Source: a virus. From it: a stretch of 30,745 nt of DNA. Location: positions 1 through 30,745 of IMG/VR virus record IMGVR_UViG_3300048554_000021; one strand, written 5' to 3'. The translations under genes and the position numbers were made by a program. Below, one piece after another: positions 1-30,745 of this stretch; the first letter of the stretch is position 1, and each line of letters starts with the position of its first letter. The notes below the pieces were generated by a model, which did no database searches, was not told where the DNA came from, and saw nothing but the letters and a program-made list of their open reading frames with translations.

Positions 1-167
1 ATCAACTAAGGCTTGTTTAAAATTTCTAAATTTATTTAATCTTGGTAAACCTAATTGGAAAACCATATGGGTTACACATTCTTTTATATTATCGTCTACT
101 TCCATACCCTCGCAGAACTTTTCAGCGTCATTAATGGCAACATATAAATCAACTTCAAAACATTCAT
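1..167. repeat. Left copy of a 167-base terminal direct repeat (95.8% identical to 30579-30745)
   Basis: Bases 1-167 align without gaps to 30579-30745. They differ at seven sites: 3, 58, 61, 73, 109, 127 and 154. Six of the seven are third codon positions of the lysozyme frame; five changes are silent and two are conservative (Glu/Asp and Asp/Asn). This pattern fits two natural haplotypes joined at the ends of a circular or redundant assembly rather than sequencing error. Confidence 0.9.
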
Positions 168-7400: not shown

Positions 7401-7710
7401 ACTCACCATCAAAAATAACTTTTTTATCATCAAGGTATATCTCTTCTATTTCTTGAATTTCTCCTTCACAGACAACACCTGCAATATATAAATATTCGTT
7501 ATCTGAACCAGAAGATTCAACAAAAACACGAGTAATACCTACTTTTCTTCTTCCATAAACTACTGGTATTTGAGCATTATTAGACTGTTTGTTGATTAAT
7601 ACACCACGAACTTGCTCAGAAGCTCCAAACTCTGGCACATCTGGAATAGGTAACAGCCAACCAATAAAGTCATTTACGACATTGACAACAGCATCTACGA
7701 CACTACCCAT
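4405..7710 (-). CDS. Central tail hub / tip protein with PA14-like insert
   Basis: 1101 residues. The N-terminal part (VRGVLINKQSNNAQIPVVYG, GDNEYLYIAG-like strands, DPRDTTTKYSQNSALVLLDY at about 190-215) is typical of lambda gpJ- or GTA g15-like tip proteins. At about 257-405 sits an inserted beta domain with SSDRYFGYINAP, FEFQTSSDDASHVYIGDDG and GGIYPIVIYYG...LTFRWRVSGG, the pattern of PA14/GLEYA carbohydrate-binding modules. After it the hub resumes (DTDQKVLENVKKLLNPM), and a fibronectin III-like module follows near 740-830 (PADVTNFQVNIVDTEAHLSW). It starts in TAATG (7708-7712) with the HlyC-like gene. It likely forms the tail tip that plugs the tube and touches surface glycans. Confidence 0.85.
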   Translation of the reverse strand: MGSVVDAVVNVVNDFIGWLLPIPDVPEFGASEQVRGVLINKQSNNAQIPVVYGRRKVGITRVFVESSGSDNEYLYIAGVVCEGEIQEIEEIYLDDKKVIFDGELDDGVVREVSYGDLNFYKGSTSYVQIQAFYGTDDQVASSVLTPSINWTANHRLRGVCYLAFRLKWNQDIFSSIPDIKVVLKGKKVYDPRDTTTKYSQNSALVLLDYLRNTRYGKGLPDDAFEANFASFQTSANEADTLIVPRTEVVTPVAGITKQDFNGYYNDKTTFFLNRSFSSTDKITSINGVGTASYSSDRYFGYINAPSSETFEFQTSSDDASHVYIGDDGQTVDNLIKEIEADRTAKLIVNNGGLHANTTRSGSKALTSGGIYPIVIYYGNAPSGGSLTFRWRVSGGVYSTDLSTIFSNGEYATDEVPAIIKFETNAVLDTDQKVLENVKKLLNPMSALFTYNNGVYKVKIEGTGSSIKTITADHVVGGAKVLGERKNKKYNRVIGTYVNPFKNFQNDTVSFPPADDSNVETDFQHATMLAEDNSTLLEGNFQFPNVTNTYNAEALCEIILRRSRNQLQIQLTLTSEFLELEIGDIVAITYPTGGFDAKPFRVLGLTINEDLTVNVQLFEHQDNFYTFNEKNPIATIADTTLPNPFIVQAPVIEVSDELRALNEEAISVLLVDVEATDEFIVDFEVQAKKSTDTAYINLGRGASSKFELANVEDNAIYDVRARSVSSISRSVFVSAQHQVVGKTAPPADVTNFQVNIVDTEAHLSWTPVPDLDLSHYIIRHSPLTSGAIFSNAITLIDKVSRPANTVTVPALTGTYFIRSVDKIGLKSLNATSNVALINNVKNLNFVASSTQDPSFTGTKTDVIIVDDALILETALFDSVSGDFDDAVGNFDGGGGTVLSTGTYDFDTYIDAGGVYSSRITATVNMERLDYVNLFDDAQGNFDAREGLFDGANDTFGDVNVQLQIAKTDGDPATADYTPFQKFNVGDYTGRGFKFRAVLLSDDVEATPKVTGLSVQVDMPERVYSEKDVSSGTDTNGKAITFSPAFKEISGVGISASNLASGDYYAITSKSATGFTIEFFNSSNATIDRTFDYVVRGYGELAS

Positions 7711-8108
7711 TAATGAAAATCCCTTTTAAACTTTTGACCAACTCTATAAACACCATTATCAACTCTAACCCAGTTAATAGAATTATTTATTTTTAGCTCT
7801 TTTTTAAAATAATTATATACCCATCTCATCATAGCAAAAGTATTATGAATTGATAAGATATCTATTAACCATAAATTATTACCAGAGTTCCATTCAGTAT
7901 GTTTAATTTTACCTGTTAATCTAAATCTTTCTTGGACTAAATTATGCAGATAAGCCCAGTTTACAAACCCTACAATGCTATATTCATCATAAAACATTCT
8001 ATATTGGTTAAGTTCTATTGAGGGCTGTAAATAACGCTCTAATTGCCTTGTAGATTGGTTTTGATATTTCTCAAATTGTTTAAATAACCCTACAATATCT
8101 GCAATCAT
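7710..8108 (-). CDS. HlyC-like (toxin-activating acyltransferase family) tail-module protein
   Basis: 132 residues aligning by eye to E. coli HlyC over most of the length: YLQPSIELNQY (HlyC LPAI.ANQY), YSIVGFVNWAYL (HlyC YPVAYCSWANL), EWNSGNNLWLID (HlyC DWTSGDRKWFID) and WVRVD (HlyC AIRVD). HlyC acylates lysines of RTX toxins using His23 and Asp92. Here D83 matches Asp92, but the site of His23 falls on Tyr15 and there is no His at all before residue 55, so ordinary catalysis is doubtful. An in-frame TAG just upstream of the ATG rules out a longer N-terminus. No RTX protoxin is present. It sits between DUF2163-like and hub genes, the slot that NlpC/P60 peptidases hold in related tail clusters, so a virion role is inferred. 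Confidence 0.75.
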   Translation of the reverse strand: MIADIVGLFKQFEKYQNQSTRQLERYLQPSIELNQYRMFYDEYSIVGFVNWAYLHNLVQERFRLTGKIKHTEWNSGNNLWLIDILSIHNTFAMMRWVYNYFKKELKINNSINWVRVDNGVYRVGQKFKRDFH

Positions 8109-17928: not shown

Positions 17929-18104
17929 TAACCAGTTCTCCTCTTTAATAGTGCTAAAGGTATTCTTGCACCAGACTTATACAAAGAACTTACTTGCTTT
18001 ATAAGACTAGCTCTTTGATTTCTTTTAGCACCCTTTAACCCAGATAAATATTTCTTGGGTATCTTGGTTTTTTTATCTTTTGGTACTTTACGTTTCTTCG
18101 CCAA
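17928..18104 (-). CDS. 58-residue basic protein with TTG start
   Basis: The open frame begins at a TTG at 18104 (an in-frame TAG stands 15 bases upstream, and no ATG or GTG lies between). A purine-rich AGAGGG sits about 8 bases before TTG. The protein begins (M)AKKRKVPKDKKTKIPKKYLS and continues GLKGAKRNQRASLIKQVSSL with RIPLALLKRRTG. It overlaps the portal end by 17 bases. Its KKYLSGL...R..LI pattern resembles other small Lys-rich phage proteins of this position. Confidence 0.6.
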   Translation of the reverse strand: MAKKRKVPKDKKTKIPKKYLSGLKGAKRNQRASLIKQVSSLYKSGARIPLALLKRRTG

Positions 18105-19512
18105 CTGTTTGACCCTCTACTTCTGTGGTTTGAAATTGACCTCTAACTGTTCTAGTAGCATCTATTTCATCATTAATAGTTTTCATAGTATCATTATCAT
18201 CTATGACTGCTTCAGCTATCTGTTTATCTATTTCTTTGTTAAATGTTTCTGATTTTATACCACTAGCTTTAGCCATCTGTAAGTATTGGAGGTCATTAGC
18301 CCAATCTCTAATATCAAAAGTGTCTGGATAGTTTACTGAGCCATTCCATTGTTTATCTTGCCATTTAGCGAATAAATCCCAGATTTGTTCTTCTGCATTT
18401 TCTAAATAATCTGCTTTTTCTGATAACCTTGCATTTAATAATTGGAACTCAGTTTGTAAGGCAATTCCACTAGCTATCTGTGTACCTGTAGCCCTAACTG
18501 AACCCATGTGGGTTATTCTATCAATAGCATCAACCTTGCTTTGAATACATTTCATAATGCCCTCTAGGTTTTGTCCACTAGGCTGTATTATATAAGGCTT
18601 TAAAGATGAATCTAAGTCTTCTGGTATTTCTATAATAGCTCCTGCACCTGCACTAGCTTCAACATTAGGAGTTTTAACTAAACTAGGGTGGTTAGCTAAT
18701 CTAATTAATTGTTCTTTTTCTGAGTAATCATTATAAATAGATTGCTGTAAATAGGCTACATCAGCCAAATCACTTATACCTATAGGTCTTTTAGCACCTC
18801 TAAGATTATAAACATTAACAGCAGGGATAACCCCTATAGCATTAGGTACTTCCTCAATAAGTTTAGGTTCTTTGTCTGTGTATTCTTCTGTGTAGTCTTC
18901 AAATTCATATGTGAGTATACTTTCCTCAGTAAAAACCTTGATAATAGCTCTTTGAGAATTTACATCTTCTATGACAACCAATAAATCTAAATAAAACCTA
19001 CCACTTGCTGACCTTTTATAATTCCAATTAACAATATTCTCTGGTGTATATATTGAAACATAAGGTCTTATATCTTGTGCCAATTCTTCTGCTCTTGTCT
19101 TAGCATTAGACTGAGGTTTATCAATCACAACCCAACAATTACCATAAATACTAGCGTTCATCTGAACTTCTCGCATTACAGTATTAAAGTTTCTTCCGTC
19201 TAAATCAGCATCTTCTATAAATGAAGCTAGTTGTGGGTCACCATCTAAATCGCCATAATTTCTTGTAGGTGGTACTCTCCATAGGAAACTAGTGTAAATC
19301 TGCACAACATTCTTACAATGATTGTCTACTGGAGTATGTCTTATTCTTTGGTCATATTCTTCTGGTGTTTCTAATATGTATCTGTGAAGGTAATAGCCGT
19401 TTTTGTAATCATTACCGCCTAAATAACTGCGGATATAAAATTCCCAGTTAGATATATTTTGATGCCATAAATCGTGTTTATTGTGTAGAAATTCTTTGTC
19501 CATCAACTCCAC
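18088..19512 (-). CDS. Portal protein
   Basis: 474 residues. KHDLWHQNISNWEFYIRSYL, HTPVDNHCKNVVQIYTSFLW (conserved helix-and-loop of portals), GNCWVVIDKP, YVSIYTPENIVNWNY, VNVYNLRGAKRPIGISDLAD and a C-terminal DIRDWANDLQYLQMAKASGI define an SPP1/DUF4055-like portal, the dodecamer through which DNA passes. It starts inside the last bases of the terminase gene (10-base overlap) and ends overlapping a small basic gene. Its length is near the middle of the family range. Confidence 0.9.
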   Translation of the reverse strand: MELMDKEFLHNKHDLWHQNISNWEFYIRSYLGGNDYKNGYYLHRYILETPEEYDQRIRHTPVDNHCKNVVQIYTSFLWRVPPTRNYGDLDGDPQLASFIEDADLDGRNFNTVMREVQMNASIYGNCWVVIDKPQSNAKTRAEELAQDIRPYVSIYTPENIVNWNYKRSASGRFYLDLLVVIEDVNSQRAIIKVFTEESILTYEFEDYTEEYTDKEPKLIEEVPNAIGVIPAVNVYNLRGAKRPIGISDLADVAYLQQSIYNDYSEKEQLIRLANHPSLVKTPNVEASAGAGAIIEIPEDLDSSLKPYIIQPSGQNLEGIMKCIQSKVDAIDRITHMGSVRATGTQIASGIALQTEFQLLNARLSEKADYLENAEEQIWDLFAKWQDKQWNGSVNYPDTFDIRDWANDLQYLQMAKASGIKSETFNKEIDKQIAEAVIDDNDTMKTINDEIDATRTVRGQFQTTEVEGQTVGEET

Positions 19513-20720
19513 CTCTTAGGAGGGCTTGCAACAAAATTCCGTCTAAGTGGGAAATTTAACTCAACTAAATAACCAAGAGCATCATTCATGTGGTCGTATC
19601 CACTATCCTTATCTGGTATATGTGTTCCCTCTTTATATATCTGTCTTTCTATGCTTTTTATTACATTTTTGCAAGATTTTAGAATAAACAGATTATTTTT
19701 GCCATTTACATTTTTAAGTTTTGAATTAACAGAATTAATCCTATCCCTCACAAGAGGTGCTGTATTTCTACATTTTACATCAAATCCTGCATTTTTCAAT
19801 ATACTTATGTCAGTAAATCCTCCTGCGGAGGTTTTTCTTTGTCTAGCACTAGGGTCTGGGTATACAATTATCTTTTTATTTTGGTATCTGTTTCTGATTT
19901 CTTCACACATTTCTTGGGTATTTGAAGAATATATTTGTATTTCATCAACAACAATAATTATTTCTCTATCAATATAACAAACAACAGCAGTCATTGGGTC
20001 TACGTTAAAATCTAAACCAATATGTAAAACTGGGTATTCTCTATCAAACTTATCTATTATATTTTTTTGCCTATTAAAATTATAATATATCATACCAGAA
20101 TAATTTACAAAAGTAGCTTCATATTCCTGTTGGAATGTTCTTATATCTAAATCTTGTTTGGCTTGCTCAACTTCTTTATCACTTACTTGACCACCCTCTA
20201 AAGTGGTATATTTAAATGAAGCCCATTCTTCACTACTTTCGCCTTGTTTAAATAATTCATATGACCAATTACCAAAACCTCTAGGACTACCGCAAAACAA
20301 AGCATGACCACCTGTGTCTGATAATGTGGGTCTTAATACCTCATACCATGCTTCTTTATGTATATCTGCAAACTCATCTAAAACTATAAAATTTAAGCCA
20401 ACACCTCTAAGTGACTGTTCGTTATCCGCACCCCTTAAAGTAATTCTAGAGTTATTTTTTAAAGTTATAGTTAAATCACTATTATTAATGTTTTTGACCC
20501 ATCTATGGTCTATTAATCGCTCTTTAAGCTCATTCCAACATATTTGTTTAGCTTGCCTATAAGTTGGAGCAACATACCAAACTTTTTGATTGGATTTGCT
20601 TGCAAACTTAGCTAACTCATTTATTGCTAAATATGTTTTACCAAATCTTCTGCCTGTAATAAGAACCCTAAACCTAGATTCATCACTAATAACTTCTGAT
20701 TGTGGTTTGGTTAATGGCAT
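19503..20720 (-). CDS. terL: Terminase large subunit (ATPase and nuclease)
   Basis: 405 residues. ATPase: Walker A GRRFGKT at 23-29, Walker B NFIVLDE at 110-116, coupling motif CGSPRG at 143-148. Nuclease (RNase H-like): HIGLDFNVDP with D237, D289 of VYPDPSARQR, and GYDHMNDALGYL near the end. This is a compact, complete TerL of the siphovirus type. Its ATG overlaps the small-terminase stop (TAATG, 20718-20722). It drives DNA into the prohead and cuts concatemers. Whether packaging is cos or headful cannot be told; the apparent circularity favours headful with permuted ends, but a circular assembly could arise otherwise. Confidence 0.93.
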   Translation of the reverse strand: MPLTKPQSEVISDESRFRVLITGRRFGKTYLAINELAKFASKSNQKVWYVAPTYRQAKQICWNELKERLIDHRWVKNINNSDLTITLKNNSRITLRGADNEQSLRGVGLNFIVLDEFADIHKEAWYEVLRPTLSDTGGHALFCGSPRGFGNWSYELFKQGESSEEWASFKYTTLEGGQVSDKEVEQAKQDLDIRTFQQEYEATFVNYSGMIYYNFNRQKNIIDKFDREYPVLHIGLDFNVDPMTAVVCYIDREIIIVVDEIQIYSSNTQEMCEEIRNRYQNKKIIVYPDPSARQRKTSAGGFTDISILKNAGFDVKCRNTAPLVRDRINSVNSKLKNVNGKNNLFILKSCKNVIKSIERQIYKEGTHIPDKDSGYDHMNDALGYLVELNFPLRRNFVASPPKRWS

Positions 20721-21022
20721 TAGCTAGTCCAAGGCAATGGTACATCTAGCTCTGTTTCTTCTACTCTATCTTGTTGACCTAACATATTTTTTCCTAAGAA
20801 TATGAGCATACTTACGTTTCCGTTCTCACAAGCTTTCCATTGAAGCTGTCTCAATCTCATTTTTTGCTCTGCCCTGCCTTTTGTCAGAAATTCCGAATAA
20901 CTCTTTTCTAATAAATCTGCTGAACAGCCAAAAAAGTCTGCCATTTCTTTATTTGTACATCCTAATGTTGCTAACTTTTGTAATTGAATTGTATCTATTT
21001 GATATTTTTTTGGTCTTGCCAT
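20720..21022 (-). CDS. terS: Terminase small subunit
   Basis: 100 residues. An N-terminal DNA-binding helix-turn-helix (LQKLATLGCTNKEMADFFGC, then LEKSYSEFLTKG) is followed by an RQLQWKACENGNVSMLIFL oligomerisation helix, KNMLGQQD and a short acidic tail for contact with TerL (EETELDVPLPWTS). Layout and the GCTNKEMADFFG motif are typical of TerS. It immediately precedes terL. It selects packaging-start DNA. Confidence 0.88.
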   Translation of the reverse strand: MARPKKYQIDTIQLQKLATLGCTNKEMADFFGCSADLLEKSYSEFLTKGRAEQKMRLRQLQWKACENGNVSMLIFLGKNMLGQQDRVEETELDVPLPWTS

Positions 21023-21054: not shown

Positions 21055-21942
21055 TTAATTTTTTATGGTTTTAAGTTTTAATCCGTATTCATTAATACCC
21101 TTTTTTTTAATATAATCATCACGAAATATAAGTTTATTTTCTTTTTTAAATTTATTGTAATTTACATAATGATGATGTCTACCATATCGCCATACAAGTT
21201 TTGTAACATCTGGGTGCAATTTCATTTGCATATTAGATTTAGGGATTGTTCCCTCTTTTGCATAAAATTCGTCTGTATTGCCACCTTTTAATGTTTGAGT
21301 ATTAGCTTTTTCCTGTAAAAATACATTAAATTGAACTGTACACCACCCTTTTTTTAAAATTCTTAACGATAAATCTGTATCTTCATTATATCTACCCCTC
21401 CATCTATCTGGTAAAGGCAAATCATTTCTAATAAGGTTACATGAGTATATTCTGGTATTAACTGTAAATGGTGTATATTGATGCCCCCATTTATCTATAA
21501 CAAAAAATGTATAATTTGGTCCCGCCATTCCTATATTTTTATATCTTAATACAAAATCTTCCATAACTTTAAATGGTGTAGCATCTGTACATTTGACTTC
21601 AATGTTATTTTGCCATCTTCTAAAACATTTAATATTATCGTCCATAACCCAATGCCATTTGTAACCTCTATCTATAGAATGTTGCCAAATAAAATTTCTA
21701 GCGGGTCCAGGTCCTTTTGATTTTTTATCGCCTAAATCGTCGCAGGTATCGTAATCTTTCTGGTAGGTCTTATCTAATACAACTATTTTTTTCTTATCTA
21801 TAACCTTCGCATAGTCTGAGTATTCTTGTTCTTCTACAACAATGCTATATGAAACACCCATTTGTTCTAGTACTTTTGCTGTTAACCTTGAATCTGCTCT
21901 GCCTTTTGATGGAATATAAATTGGAAATTGATTACTTTTCAT
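21055..21942 (-). CDS. TET-associated-type glycosyltransferase (TAGT family)
   Basis: 295 residues. FPIYIPSKGRADSRL (6-20), SYSIVVEEQEYSDY (31-44), GPARNFIWQHSIDRGYKWH (79-97) and WVMDDNIKCFRRW with the sugar-nucleotide DDN at 101-103 are the hallmark order of TAGT glycosyltransferases, which in characterised phages transfer sugars to hydroxymethylated pyrimidines in DNA. Then RYNEDTDLSLRILKKGWCTV contains a second acidic cluster, and HHHYVNYNKF lies near the end. I see no TET/JBP dioxygenase or hydroxymethylating enzyme in the window, so the target is unclear. It overlaps the ParB-like gene by 11 bases and lies 32 bases before terS. Confidence 0.85.
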   Translation of the reverse strand: MKSNQFPIYIPSKGRADSRLTAKVLEQMGVSYSIVVEEQEYSDYAKVIDKKKIVVLDKTYQKDYDTCDDLGDKKSKGPGPARNFIWQHSIDRGYKWHWVMDDNIKCFRRWQNNIEVKCTDATPFKVMEDFVLRYKNIGMAGPNYTFFVIDKWGHQYTPFTVNTRIYSCNLIRNDLPLPDRWRGRYNEDTDLSLRILKKGWCTVQFNVFLQEKANTQTLKGGNTDEFYAKEGTIPKSNMQMKLHPDVTKLVWRYGRHHHYVNYNKFKKENKLIFRDDYIKKKGINEYGLKLKTIKN

Positions 21943-22552
21943 AATACTTATCTTTGATTACATTTTTTTCTATAAAAGGAAACCAAATATATTTTGTTTT
22001 TTCTGTATAATCTTGCTTAATTAATTGAAAGAATTTTTCAACAGCATCTTGGTTTACAAAGTTAACTGTTAAAGACCTAAATGGTGACTGGTCTGAATGT
22101 TCAAAACTAGGCATATCTTGCCAATGTTCTTCAGTATCAAGCCAATTCCTTGAATTATGGTCAGATTGAAATATTATTGTTTCTAATTCTTGCTCCTCAA
22201 AACCTAACTCATCTATATTAAAATTTATTTCTTTAAGAGCATCTATTTCAAGTTTTAATAAATCATAGTCCCAACCTGCATCTTCTGATATTCGATTATC
22301 TGCTATACGATATGCTTTTGCTTTTGCTTCAGATAAATCAGCCATCAAAACTGGAACTTTTTTTAGACCTAATTTTTGTGCTCCTAAAAGTCTAGTATGA
22401 CCAACAATAACAACCATATTTTTATCAACTACAATAGGTTGCTGAAAACCATATTCATTAATGGAACTTGCAACTTTATCAATATCTTGGTTTTTTCTTG
22501 GGTTATTATGATAAGGTATTAACTTATCTGTTTCTATTTCTTGAATATTCAT
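21932..22552 (-). CDS. ParB-like N-terminal domain protein
   Basis: 206 residues. KLIPYHNNPRKNQDIDKVAS, NEYGFQQPIVVD and IVGHTRLLGAQKLGLKKVPV (GHTRLLGA at 51-58) are the ParB/sulfiredoxin-fold N-terminal motifs that bind nucleotide (CTP in ParB). KAYRIADNRISE follows. The C-terminus (FRSLTVNFVNQDAVEKFFQL; YIWFPFIEKN) is a separate small domain I associate with phage ParB-like proteins. There is no ParB DNA-binding HTH or methyltransferase domain. It overlaps both neighbours, so it belongs to the glycosyltransferase operon. A role in DNA modification, partition-like binding or transcription is inferred, not shown. Confidence 0.85.
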   Translation of the reverse strand: MNIQEIETDKLIPYHNNPRKNQDIDKVASSINEYGFQQPIVVDKNMVVIVGHTRLLGAQKLGLKKVPVLMADLSEAKAKAYRIADNRISEDAGWDYDLLKLEIDALKEINFNIDELGFEEQELETIIFQSDHNSRNWLDTEEHWQDMPSFEHSDQSPFRSLTVNFVNQDAVEKFFQLIKQDYTEKTKYIWFPFIEKNVIKDKYYEK

Positions 22553-23203: not shown

Positions 23204-24040
23204 TTATCCCCTAAAATCTAAATATTTTTTAGCTTGGTCTTTAGTAAATTTGCCTTCACCTATTGCTCTTTCAACATCACTTGAATACCTTTGAGCATAA
23301 CCTTTAATAAATGAACTGCCTTTTTTAGCATCTACAGCTTCCTTAAACATCTTTAATCTCATAACGTAAGGGTCAGCAGTACTTGTATTTTGTTTCTTGG
23401 GTTGTTCATCTAAATACTTTTTAGCTGATAACCAAAATGCAGGCTGTTTAGCAAATTGCTTGTCTTCAATAGAATTATAATAAGTTGAATACATATCTGC
23501 TAGTTTTTCTGGGTTTTCTAACCATTCTTTTTCTATTTTTAAATAGTTCTTTTCAGCTATACCCTTACTAACTTTATTAGGTATCTTTTCCCAAAATTTA
23601 TTAAAATAAGAAGTATTATTTATCTTGGTTTTGGTATTGGTAGGGGTAGGGGTAGGGGTAGGGGGGTTTTGGCTAGGTTTTTTTGGTCTTCCTCCTAACT
23701 TGCCATTTACCTTAGAAGCCTCTATTCTTCCTGTAATATATAAATATTCTTGTAGCTGTCTTTCGTTCTGATAATGCGAACCAATTAAAACAAAAAACTG
23801 CTCTAATATATTTTTACAGCCTTCTTTTTCACTATCTGTTATGCAATTACCAATTCTATAATAAGTATTTTCGTTATTTAATATCCCAGAACATCTTTTA
23901 TTCCAGTTCCAACAAAGTAATCGAATATATATCCCTATTTCTTCGTTAGAGAGGTGTTGAGTACCCGCAATGAAATCTTCTGTGAAAAGATACCATGCTT
24001 TTAATTTCTCTTTTGGCTTTGAATTTTTTTCTATGAACAT
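23204..24040 (-). CDS. DUF1376-type replication initiator-like protein
   Basis: 278 residues from the ATG at 24040, chosen because TTGGAG stands 6 bases upstream (a TTG 12 bases earlier is the only alternative). N-terminal DUF1376 pattern: AWYLFTEDFIAGTQHLSNEE, IGIYIRLLCWNWN and ASKVNGKLGGRPKKP. A Pro-Thr linker at about 124-140 is encoded by a CCCCTA-type repeat. The C-terminal half is helical (KFWEKIPNKVSKGIAEKNYL; QFAKQPAFWLSAKKYLDE; SDVERAIGEGKFTKDQAKKYL). Such proteins are the O-like initiators of small phages that borrow the host replisome. No polymerase or helicase is seen, so this is the best replication gene in the window. Confidence 0.8.
   Translation of the reverse strand: MFIEKNSKPKEKLKAWYLFTEDFIAGTQHLSNEEIGIYIRLLCWNWNKRCSGILNNENTYYRIGNCITDSEKEGCKNILEQFFVLIGSHYQNERQLQEYLYITGRIEASKVNGKLGGRPKKPSQNPPTPTPTPTNTKTKINNTSYFNKFWEKIPNKVSKGIAEKNYLKIEKEWLENPEKLADMYSTYYNSIEDKQFAKQPAFWLSAKKYLDEQPKKQNTSTADPYVMRLKMFKEAVDAKKGSSFIKGYAQRYSSDVERAIGEGKFTKDQAKKYLDFRG
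23643..23666 (+). repeat. G-quadruplex-forming hexanucleotide repeat inside the initiator gene
   Basis: Plus strand: four runs of at least four G separated by TA (GGGG at 23643-46, 23649-52, 23655-58, and six G at 23661-66). This fits a canonical intramolecular G4 with two-base loops. On the coding strand it writes alternating Pro-Thr codons (ACC CCT). It is the most G-rich stretch I noticed in an AT-rich genome. Confidence 0.9.
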
Positions 24041-24115
24041 AATTATCTCCAATCTAATTATTTTTAATATATATAAATTAACCTAAAATGAAACCTATTT
24101 TTAATTATAGGTTAA
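24041..24115 (-). promoter_or_regulatory. AT-rich intergenic region before the initiator, with AACCTA repeats
   Basis: About 71 bases separate the PD-(D/E)XK stop from the initiator ATG. It contains the inverted pair TTAACCTA (24078-24085) and TAGGTTAA (24108-24115), plus an extra direct AAACCTA at 24091-24097. On the minus strand CCTATAATTA gives a -10-like TATAAT. A promoter or operator for the initiator is plausible. The AACCTA/TAGGTT motif recurs upstream of the early block at 29023-29044. Confidence 0.45.
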
Positions 24116-30477: not shown

Positions 30478-30745
30478 AAACTTTTACCCATTTTCTCTAT
30501 GAGCCTTTCAGCCCTGTTAGTGGTTTGCCTATACCATAAACTATCTTTCATTTCAGCTTGTGCCTTTGCAATATCCCCATTAACTAAGGCTTGTTTAAAA
30601 TTTCTAAATTTATTTAATCTTGGTAAACCTAATTGAAACACCATATGGGTAACACATTCTTTTATATTATCGTCTACTTCCATACCATCGCAGAACTTTT
30701 CAGCATCATTAATGGCAACATATAAATCAACCTCAAAACATTCAT
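30474..30745 (-). CDS. T4-type lysozyme, C-terminal part; cut by window edge
   Basis: The frame is open from the right edge to 30474. It carries the C-terminal domain of T4-type lysozymes: CVTHMVFQLGLPRLNKFRNF, KQALVNGDIAKAQAEMKDSL and WYRQTTNRAERLIEKMGKSL (T4 has the matching SRWYNQTPNRAKRVI). The first 56 or so residues overlap in sequence with the left-edge copy. Residue differences are only Asp for Glu and Asn for Asp. Together the two partial genes make one endolysin. Confidence 0.9.
   Translation of the reverse strand, partial: ECFEVDLYVAINDAEKFCDGMEVDDNIKECVTHMVFQLGLPRLNKFRNFKQALVNGDIAKAQAEMKDSLWYRQTTNRAERLIEKMGKSL
30579..30745. repeat. Right copy of the 167-base terminal direct repeat
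   Basis: Matches 1-167 with seven substitutions and no gap. The repeat ends exactly at both window edges, as expected for overlapping ends of a circular map. Confidence 0.9.

Follow-up and report, generated by a model that had tools for sequence, protein, structure and literature searches.

On what acceptor does a TAGT-family glycosyltransferase act when no base hydroxylase is visible in the genome that encodes it, and what is contributed by the ParB-like protein whose gene overlaps its own? Both questions are raised by the window, by which we mean the whole stretch of DNA analysed, a 30,745-nt virus record of a small marine phage, with 33% GC. A 167-nt terminal repeat (96% identity) splits a lysozyme-like ORF at the window ends, and the gene content of the window is therefore probably complete. 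The earlier note on this DNA had spoken of a near-complete genome; the end repeat suggests more than this, a genome of about 30.6 kb that appears closed and circularly permuted. The minus strand carries, in order, a DUF1376 gene, three small ORFs, ParB-X, TAGT, TerS, TerL and the portal gene. The features are as follows.

1..167, no strand, 167-nt terminal repeat, left-hand copy (sequence comparison of ends)
30579..30745, no strand, right-hand copy of this repeat, with 96% identity to the left one
23204..24052, minus strand, primosomal-type DUF1376 gene that bounds the slot on the left (profile matches, slot census)
21932..22552, minus strand, ParB-X gene, 206 aa (ORF list, profile match)
22295..22549, minus strand, ParB_N (PF02195) domain, residues 2-86 (PF02195, 1.6e-9)
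21935..22132, minus strand, domain X, residues 141-206, about 66 aa (homology to the X-TAGT N-terminus)
21055..21942, minus strand, TAGT-family (PF20691) glycosyltransferase of the X-linked subfamily, 295 aa (profile matches, motif alignment)
21634..21642, minus strand, DDN codons, residues 101-103, a DXD-type motif whose third residue is Asn (TAGT alignment)
20720..21022, minus strand, terminase small subunit TerS, right boundary of the slot (profile match, slot census)
19503..20720, minus strand, terminase large subunit TerL, anchor of the slot census (profile match)
18088..19512, minus strand, portal gene

The ParB-X stop and the TAGT start overlap by 11 nt (21932-21942) and both terminase genes follow, an arrangement that had been described before and that the ORF coordinates bear out. 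The cassette occupies the slot between DUF1376 and TerS, as ParB-headed modification modules do, and the small ORFs between DUF1376 and ParB showed no specificity for X-TAGT phages. Elsewhere in the window, one of 42 ORFs, probably the 132-aa ORF at 7710-8108 on the minus strand in the tail region, matched PF02794, the HlyC lysine-acyltransferase family (1.1e-16), which is odd for a phage.

Partition ParBs have a GERR motif, a helix-turn-helix domain and a ParA partner. The window protein, which matched phrog_498 (8.4e-44), reads GHTR rather than GERR in its ParB_N domain, gave no helix-turn-helix match and is accompanied by no ParA family in the 42 ORFs. A fold search with its model returned Noc, ParB, sulfiredoxin and free serine kinase, and a ParB fold of the N-terminal domain is supported by this model, in which the fold of domain X was predicted without confidence (block pLDDT about 41-88). 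The sulfiredoxin and free serine kinase matches, together with the GHTR motif, would also fit a ParB domain that does chemistry instead of targeting, as a phosphotransferase activating the base for the TAGT. We regard this as very improbable, given that cultured-phage X-TAGTs and several bacterial loci keep X without ParB and that the same ParB heads methylases needing no base-activation step.

The last 66 or so residues of the ParB protein form the domain named X here, with the signature W..MP.F ... TxKTKxIWxP, which is homologous to the N-terminal part (about 100 residues) of cultured-phage TAGTs (hhalign 99.2%, E 2.3e-19, 67 columns). Such X-TAGT fusions are encoded by Aeh1, phiAS5, 65, PTm1, POP12, Kuja (twice) and Vibrio phages 1.076.O and 1.124.O, and two contigs encode ParB, X and TAGT in a single chain (L149, 515 aa; L278, 673 aa). 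Because the cultured X-TAGTs are without ParB, ParB is not indispensable. A search of phages with domain X alone as query gave no match. The L089 ParB is 74% identical to the window ParB over residues 1-127, yet it is fused to a methylase. In Vibrio phage henriette 12B8 (L068, 4639-5819), an X-TAGT is unannotated in the record and has a frameshift between X and TAGT, and X-like mini-ORFs of 59-66 aa stand directly after the X-TAGT in Aeh1, POP12 and phiAS5 (L071 3891-4091, L073 3849-4028, L075 3903-4103).

The TAGT itself matched PF20691 (E 1.4e-40, 139.9 bits against a cut-off of 27.5) and phrog_842 (5.5e-47), and the motifs PSKGRA, RNFIW and DDN, earlier called intact, are all present. Both genes are under purifying selection, with synonymous change dominating and a TAGT dN/dS of about 0.04-0.16 in five comparisons. 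The earlier note had named lack of DDN conservation in homologues as a finding that would speak against its proposal; among 88 distinct TAGTs, the motif is kept in all 79 X-linked ones (64 beside ParB-X, 11 with X and no ParB, 4 cut upstream), and none of the nine without an X link has it, eight reading DDD and one EDD. At the third position of its DXD-type motif, the window enzyme therefore has no acidic residue, unlike TET-linked members. Since the X-TAGTs form one subfamily, the DDN mark counts as one correlated trait and not as 79 events. A structure-profile search found no solved structure related in sequence to the X-TAGT profile.

How constant the pairing is was asked from several anchors. 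Scanning viral contigs with the window TAGT alone gave 64 loci, and ParB-X lies upstream of TAGT in 60 of them, the other four contigs starting within the TAGT ORF or right at its border; by this test of genomic co-occurrence, which the earlier note had proposed, the pair is conserved. In a ParB-anchored set of 80 loci, TAGT is next to or fused with 18/18 ParBs that have X, as against 1/62 ParBs without X, a divergent TAGT in L163 (Fisher 5e-17, on loci that are not independent). An X-anchored set of 80 loci, which shares many contigs with the 64-locus set, has TAGT downstream or fused in 79, and the remaining locus ends at the contig edge; X thus adjoins or lies within TAGT wherever downstream sequence is available (79/79), and TET was found in 0/80. 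Bacterial contigs anchored on TAGT (47 loci) have X by HMM in 38, ParB in 25 and TET by HMM in none; of the nine loci without HMM X, five are cut short or in fragments, and the other four resemble X when read by eye. These contigs are labelled Proteobacteria, Bacteroidetes, Acidobacteria, Planctomycetes and Chloroflexi. The three differently anchored searches (ParB-X, X, and TAGT in bacteria) concur on the X-TAGT linkage. The terminases beside the cassette resemble those of the window in some loci and have no detectable blastp relation to them in others, such as L016 (89% TAGT identity), which suggests that the cassette moves between phage backbones. Further enzymes stand inside some cassettes, namely SAM methyltransferase-like proteins (L019, L023, L025, L097), FkbM (L048), a radical SAM protein (L113) and sugar transferases (standing alone in L130, fused in L088), including neighbours of Gly_transf_sug type. 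To judge by their nature, they would serve to decorate an added group further, as an option.

What else occupies the slot was asked by a census anchored on the window TerL and blind to the modification module (80 loci). The contig ended before the slot was spanned in 22, and the 58 resolved slots comprise 18 without a recognised module and 40 with one. ParB heads 34 of the 40 modules, all 34 with modification-type enzymes, and six modules are without ParB. The ParB-headed modules include 11 N6/N4-methylase fusions (PF01555 1.1e-17 in L089), three further putative methylase fusions with a CPPY motif read by eye, five with Mom (PF25680 1e-49 in L175), five with TET/JBP and TAGT (L174, L179, L184, L202, L239), one C5 methylase (L242; the profile was run on the related L098, PF00145 2.3e-62), five X-TAGTs and three TAGTs of 240-243 aa without X or TET. 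One more is a probable deazaguanine set (L172 2916-6659), in which QueC, QueD, FolE and DpdA were read by eye and QueE was recognised as radical SAM (1.7e-7). Example loci of the classes were checked by profile, and the census is descriptive, because the loci that it counts also served to name the classes. For 145 ParB N-domains, a tree, to be read with its few columns and long-branch warnings in mind, needs 35 changes of effector when eight classes are labelled; 15 changes are required for the X-TAGT label by itself, five or more of them forced by well-supported branches.

DNA is the likely target of the window enzyme, because the same slot in sister phages holds N6/N4 and C5 methylases, Mom, TET with TAGT and the probable deazaguanine set; DNA as substrate would follow from this slot and from the known T2/T6 TAGTs. 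We consider it probable that the cassette encodes a DNA glycosyltransferase guided by ParB-X, and that its acceptor is produced by neither TET/JBP nor any hydroxymethylase recognisable in the phage. ParB-X would be a DNA-associated platform, with an N-terminal domain of ParB/sulfiredoxin fold common to other phage DNA-modification modules, and domain X a C-terminal adaptor that is matched to the X-linked TAGT subfamily and may dock and present, or activate, the TAGT. The TAGT would take its sugar from a nucleotide-sugar of the host and attach it to a nucleobase in the phage DNA before packaging, and the sugar would presumably shield this DNA against host nucleases. The acceptor may be a base that carries no modification, or one that has been oxidised by an unrecognised enzyme or by an enzyme of the host. 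Against this reading stand the dependence of the DNA target on gene context, the naming of the module classes from the counted loci, the 18/58 resolved slots without a recognised module, the oxygenase of prolyl-4-hydroxylase fold in three cassettes, the lack of ParB in cultured X-TAGT phages, the low-confidence model of X, what Petrov et al. infer for T4 relatives without gene 42 (taken up below), and Vibrio phage 1.076.O, where the X-TAGT lies between the portal and head-morphogenesis genes, a position that would also suit a virion protein target.

That last position belongs with an alternative in which the acceptor is a protein or otherwise not DNA; thus a prolyl-4-hydroxylase-like enzyme might hydroxylate a virion protein, which would then be glycosylated. 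Such an enzyme fold, known for protein substrates, does occur in three cassettes, and the FkbM and Gly_transf_sug neighbours are glycan-type enzymes. In the slot, however, DNA methylases, Mom and TET modules are found as well, DNA methylase fusions have the same ParB head, and FkbM also follows TET and TAGT there (L184, L239), so we hold a non-DNA acceptor to be unlikely; the capsid or ParB-linked targets suggested before are less likely than DNA on the same slot content. The suggestion that modification is tied to packaging is weakened as well, as an explanation of the gene's position, because the whole slot adjoins TerS whatever its module, and in cultured phages the X-TAGT gene has other locations.

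The absence of a visible base hydroxylase, as first noticed, was upheld in the window, where PF12851, PF00303, PF13640, phrog_2954, the TET alignment and PF00145 all gave 0 matches, so that families of TET/JBP, thymidylate-synthase type or 2OG oxygenases were all missing from the search results. A Pfam scan of the 42 further ORFs gave 24 families, none of them a hydroxylase or dCMP hydroxymethylase. TET/JBP enzymes are detectable in such loci, because they were recognised behind slot-type ParBs in L104 (2.1e-24) and L095 (1.1e-27). In X-TAGT records, the TET alignment matched 0/33 (controls 3/3 positive) and PF00303 matched 0/24 IMG/VR records (0/16, then 0/8 more). PF12851 matched 0/27 records and, in a second set, 1/17, this one being the CaiB control and below the cut-off. 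PF00145 was found in 2/16 X-TAGT records. There are fragments among all these records, which limits what absence means.

The classical chemistry would have the TAGT act on a 5-hydroxymethyl or 5-hydroxy pyrimidine, the enzyme for the precursor coming from the host or from a co-infecting phage, or being a phage protein that has escaped recognition. TAGTs do stand with TET/JBP in the same slot in five loci, PF13640 oxygenases occur in 5/33 X-TAGT records, located elsewhere than the cassette, and 7/9 cultured X-TAGT records hold a PF00303 protein, divergent in Kuja and 65. An Asn residue is the criterion for thymidylate synthase, and every PF00303 protein with readable motifs keeps it. In three loci (L024, L026, L064; E 1.7e-6), an oxygenase of prolyl-4-hydroxylase fold lies between ParB-X and TAGT; its HxD and distal His/Arg are invariant in four sequences, and its model has a pLDDT of 76. 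The PHROG label 'ferrochelatase' on phrog_2954 (L024 9440-9985) was rejected, as the fold search led to a prolyl-4-hydroxylase-fold 2OG oxygenase. An oxygenase as a constant part of the cassette was likewise rejected, with only 3/64 TAGT-anchored viral loci having one. No single hydroxylase accompanies the X-TAGT, and supply by the host or by co-infection would need to work across the several bacterial phyla with X-TAGT contigs. Aeh1 and 65 are moreover absent from the gene-42 phages listed in PMC2993671, where Petrov et al. infer that T4 relatives without gene 42 are probably without major dCMP modification. The classical chemistry is thus in our judgement rather unlikely for the window. A sparse ParB-guided mark, or a base other than cytosine, would fit such a lack of heavy cytosine modification, as a speculation.

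The ParB-X-guided glycosyltransferase can be drawn further, and here we speak tentatively of something possible: the X-linked DDN TAGTs may be stand-alone enzymes that place a sugar directly on an unmodified base, as an N-, O- or C-glycoside; X would be their obligate partner, ParB-X the DNA-guiding form and the ParB C-terminus an effector-specific plug by which modifications are swapped at one locus. If true, a glycosyltransferase that can do without hydroxylation beforehand would bring a new DNA chemistry and might serve as a labelling tool. From the effector-matched C-terminus and the ParB-X-TAGT single chains, a testable role for ParB can be drawn, the ParB being the platform and the C-terminal domain the plug, and the cultured phages Aeh1, 65, phiAS5, Vibrio 1.076.O and Vibrio 1.124.O make the base in question directly measurable.

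As compared with known systems, the nearest in family is the T2/T6 beta-alpha glucosyltransferase, which shares PF20691, acts on DNA and gives phrog_842 its PHROGs label. According to PMC13216743 and PMC2993671, gene 42 makes hmC in T2/T6 and an alpha-glucosyltransferase adds the first glucose; the TAGT then adds glucose to the already glucosylated cytosine (PMC13216743), so the earlier statement that known members glycosylate hydroxymethylated bases was too narrow. The window differs in having no PF00303 protein and, in the general Pfam scan of the 42 ORFs, no alpha-glucosyltransferase or other glycosyltransferase family. Phage TET/JBP and TAGT operons share the slot and the ParB head, with TAGT behind TET; the window is without TET, its TAGT reads DDN instead of DDD and its ParB ends in X, so that it departs from the TET/JBP association that gave the family its name. 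The 'glucosyl transferase, unknown base' predicted for Aeh1 in PMC8056088 (after Iyer et al. 2013) is presumably the Aeh1 X-TAGT; in Aeh1, X is fused to TAGT and there is no ParB head. ParB PF02195 domains beside or fused to DNA-modifying enzymes (methylases, CmoX contexts) appear in a 2025 paper, which states their function to be unknown (PMC12783734); the window effector is instead a glycosyltransferase, joined through X. Genes 1-5 of Gordonia phage CaiB, a ParB-like gene, TET/JBP and further modification genes, lie just before the terminase (PMC9302106); this system is TET-based, and its 9-kb locus has no blastp match to the window TAGT. From these sources, the TAGT family, ParB near DNA methylases, ParB with TET before the terminase and a predicted Aeh1 DNA glycosyltransferase are already known. 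The literature searched, with Iyer et al. 2013 and the PNAS 2021 phage TET paper outside its scope, yielded nothing on the ParB-TAGT pair or domain X as such, nor on X in the role of an obligate partner, on chains that join ParB, X and TAGT, on a slot with exchangeable modules or on the DDN mark.

Some loci of the collected sets hold other combinations. A Mom-like DNA modification protein (phrog_1384 4.7e-34 in L043) stands beside the X-TAGT cassette, between TerS and TerL, in L043, L044, L045 and L047. In two of the three putative methylase fusions of the slot (L177 1113-2748; L205), an AdoMet decarboxylase follows (PF02675 2.3e-26 in L177), possibly for a base modification with decarboxylated SAM. 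ParB with TET/JBP is accompanied by class II glutamine-amidotransferase-like ORFs, read by eye, in L095 (6590-9011) and L152 (1175-3844), and in L095 also by an amidoligase-like ORF, again by eye, and an amide hypermodification is possible in both.
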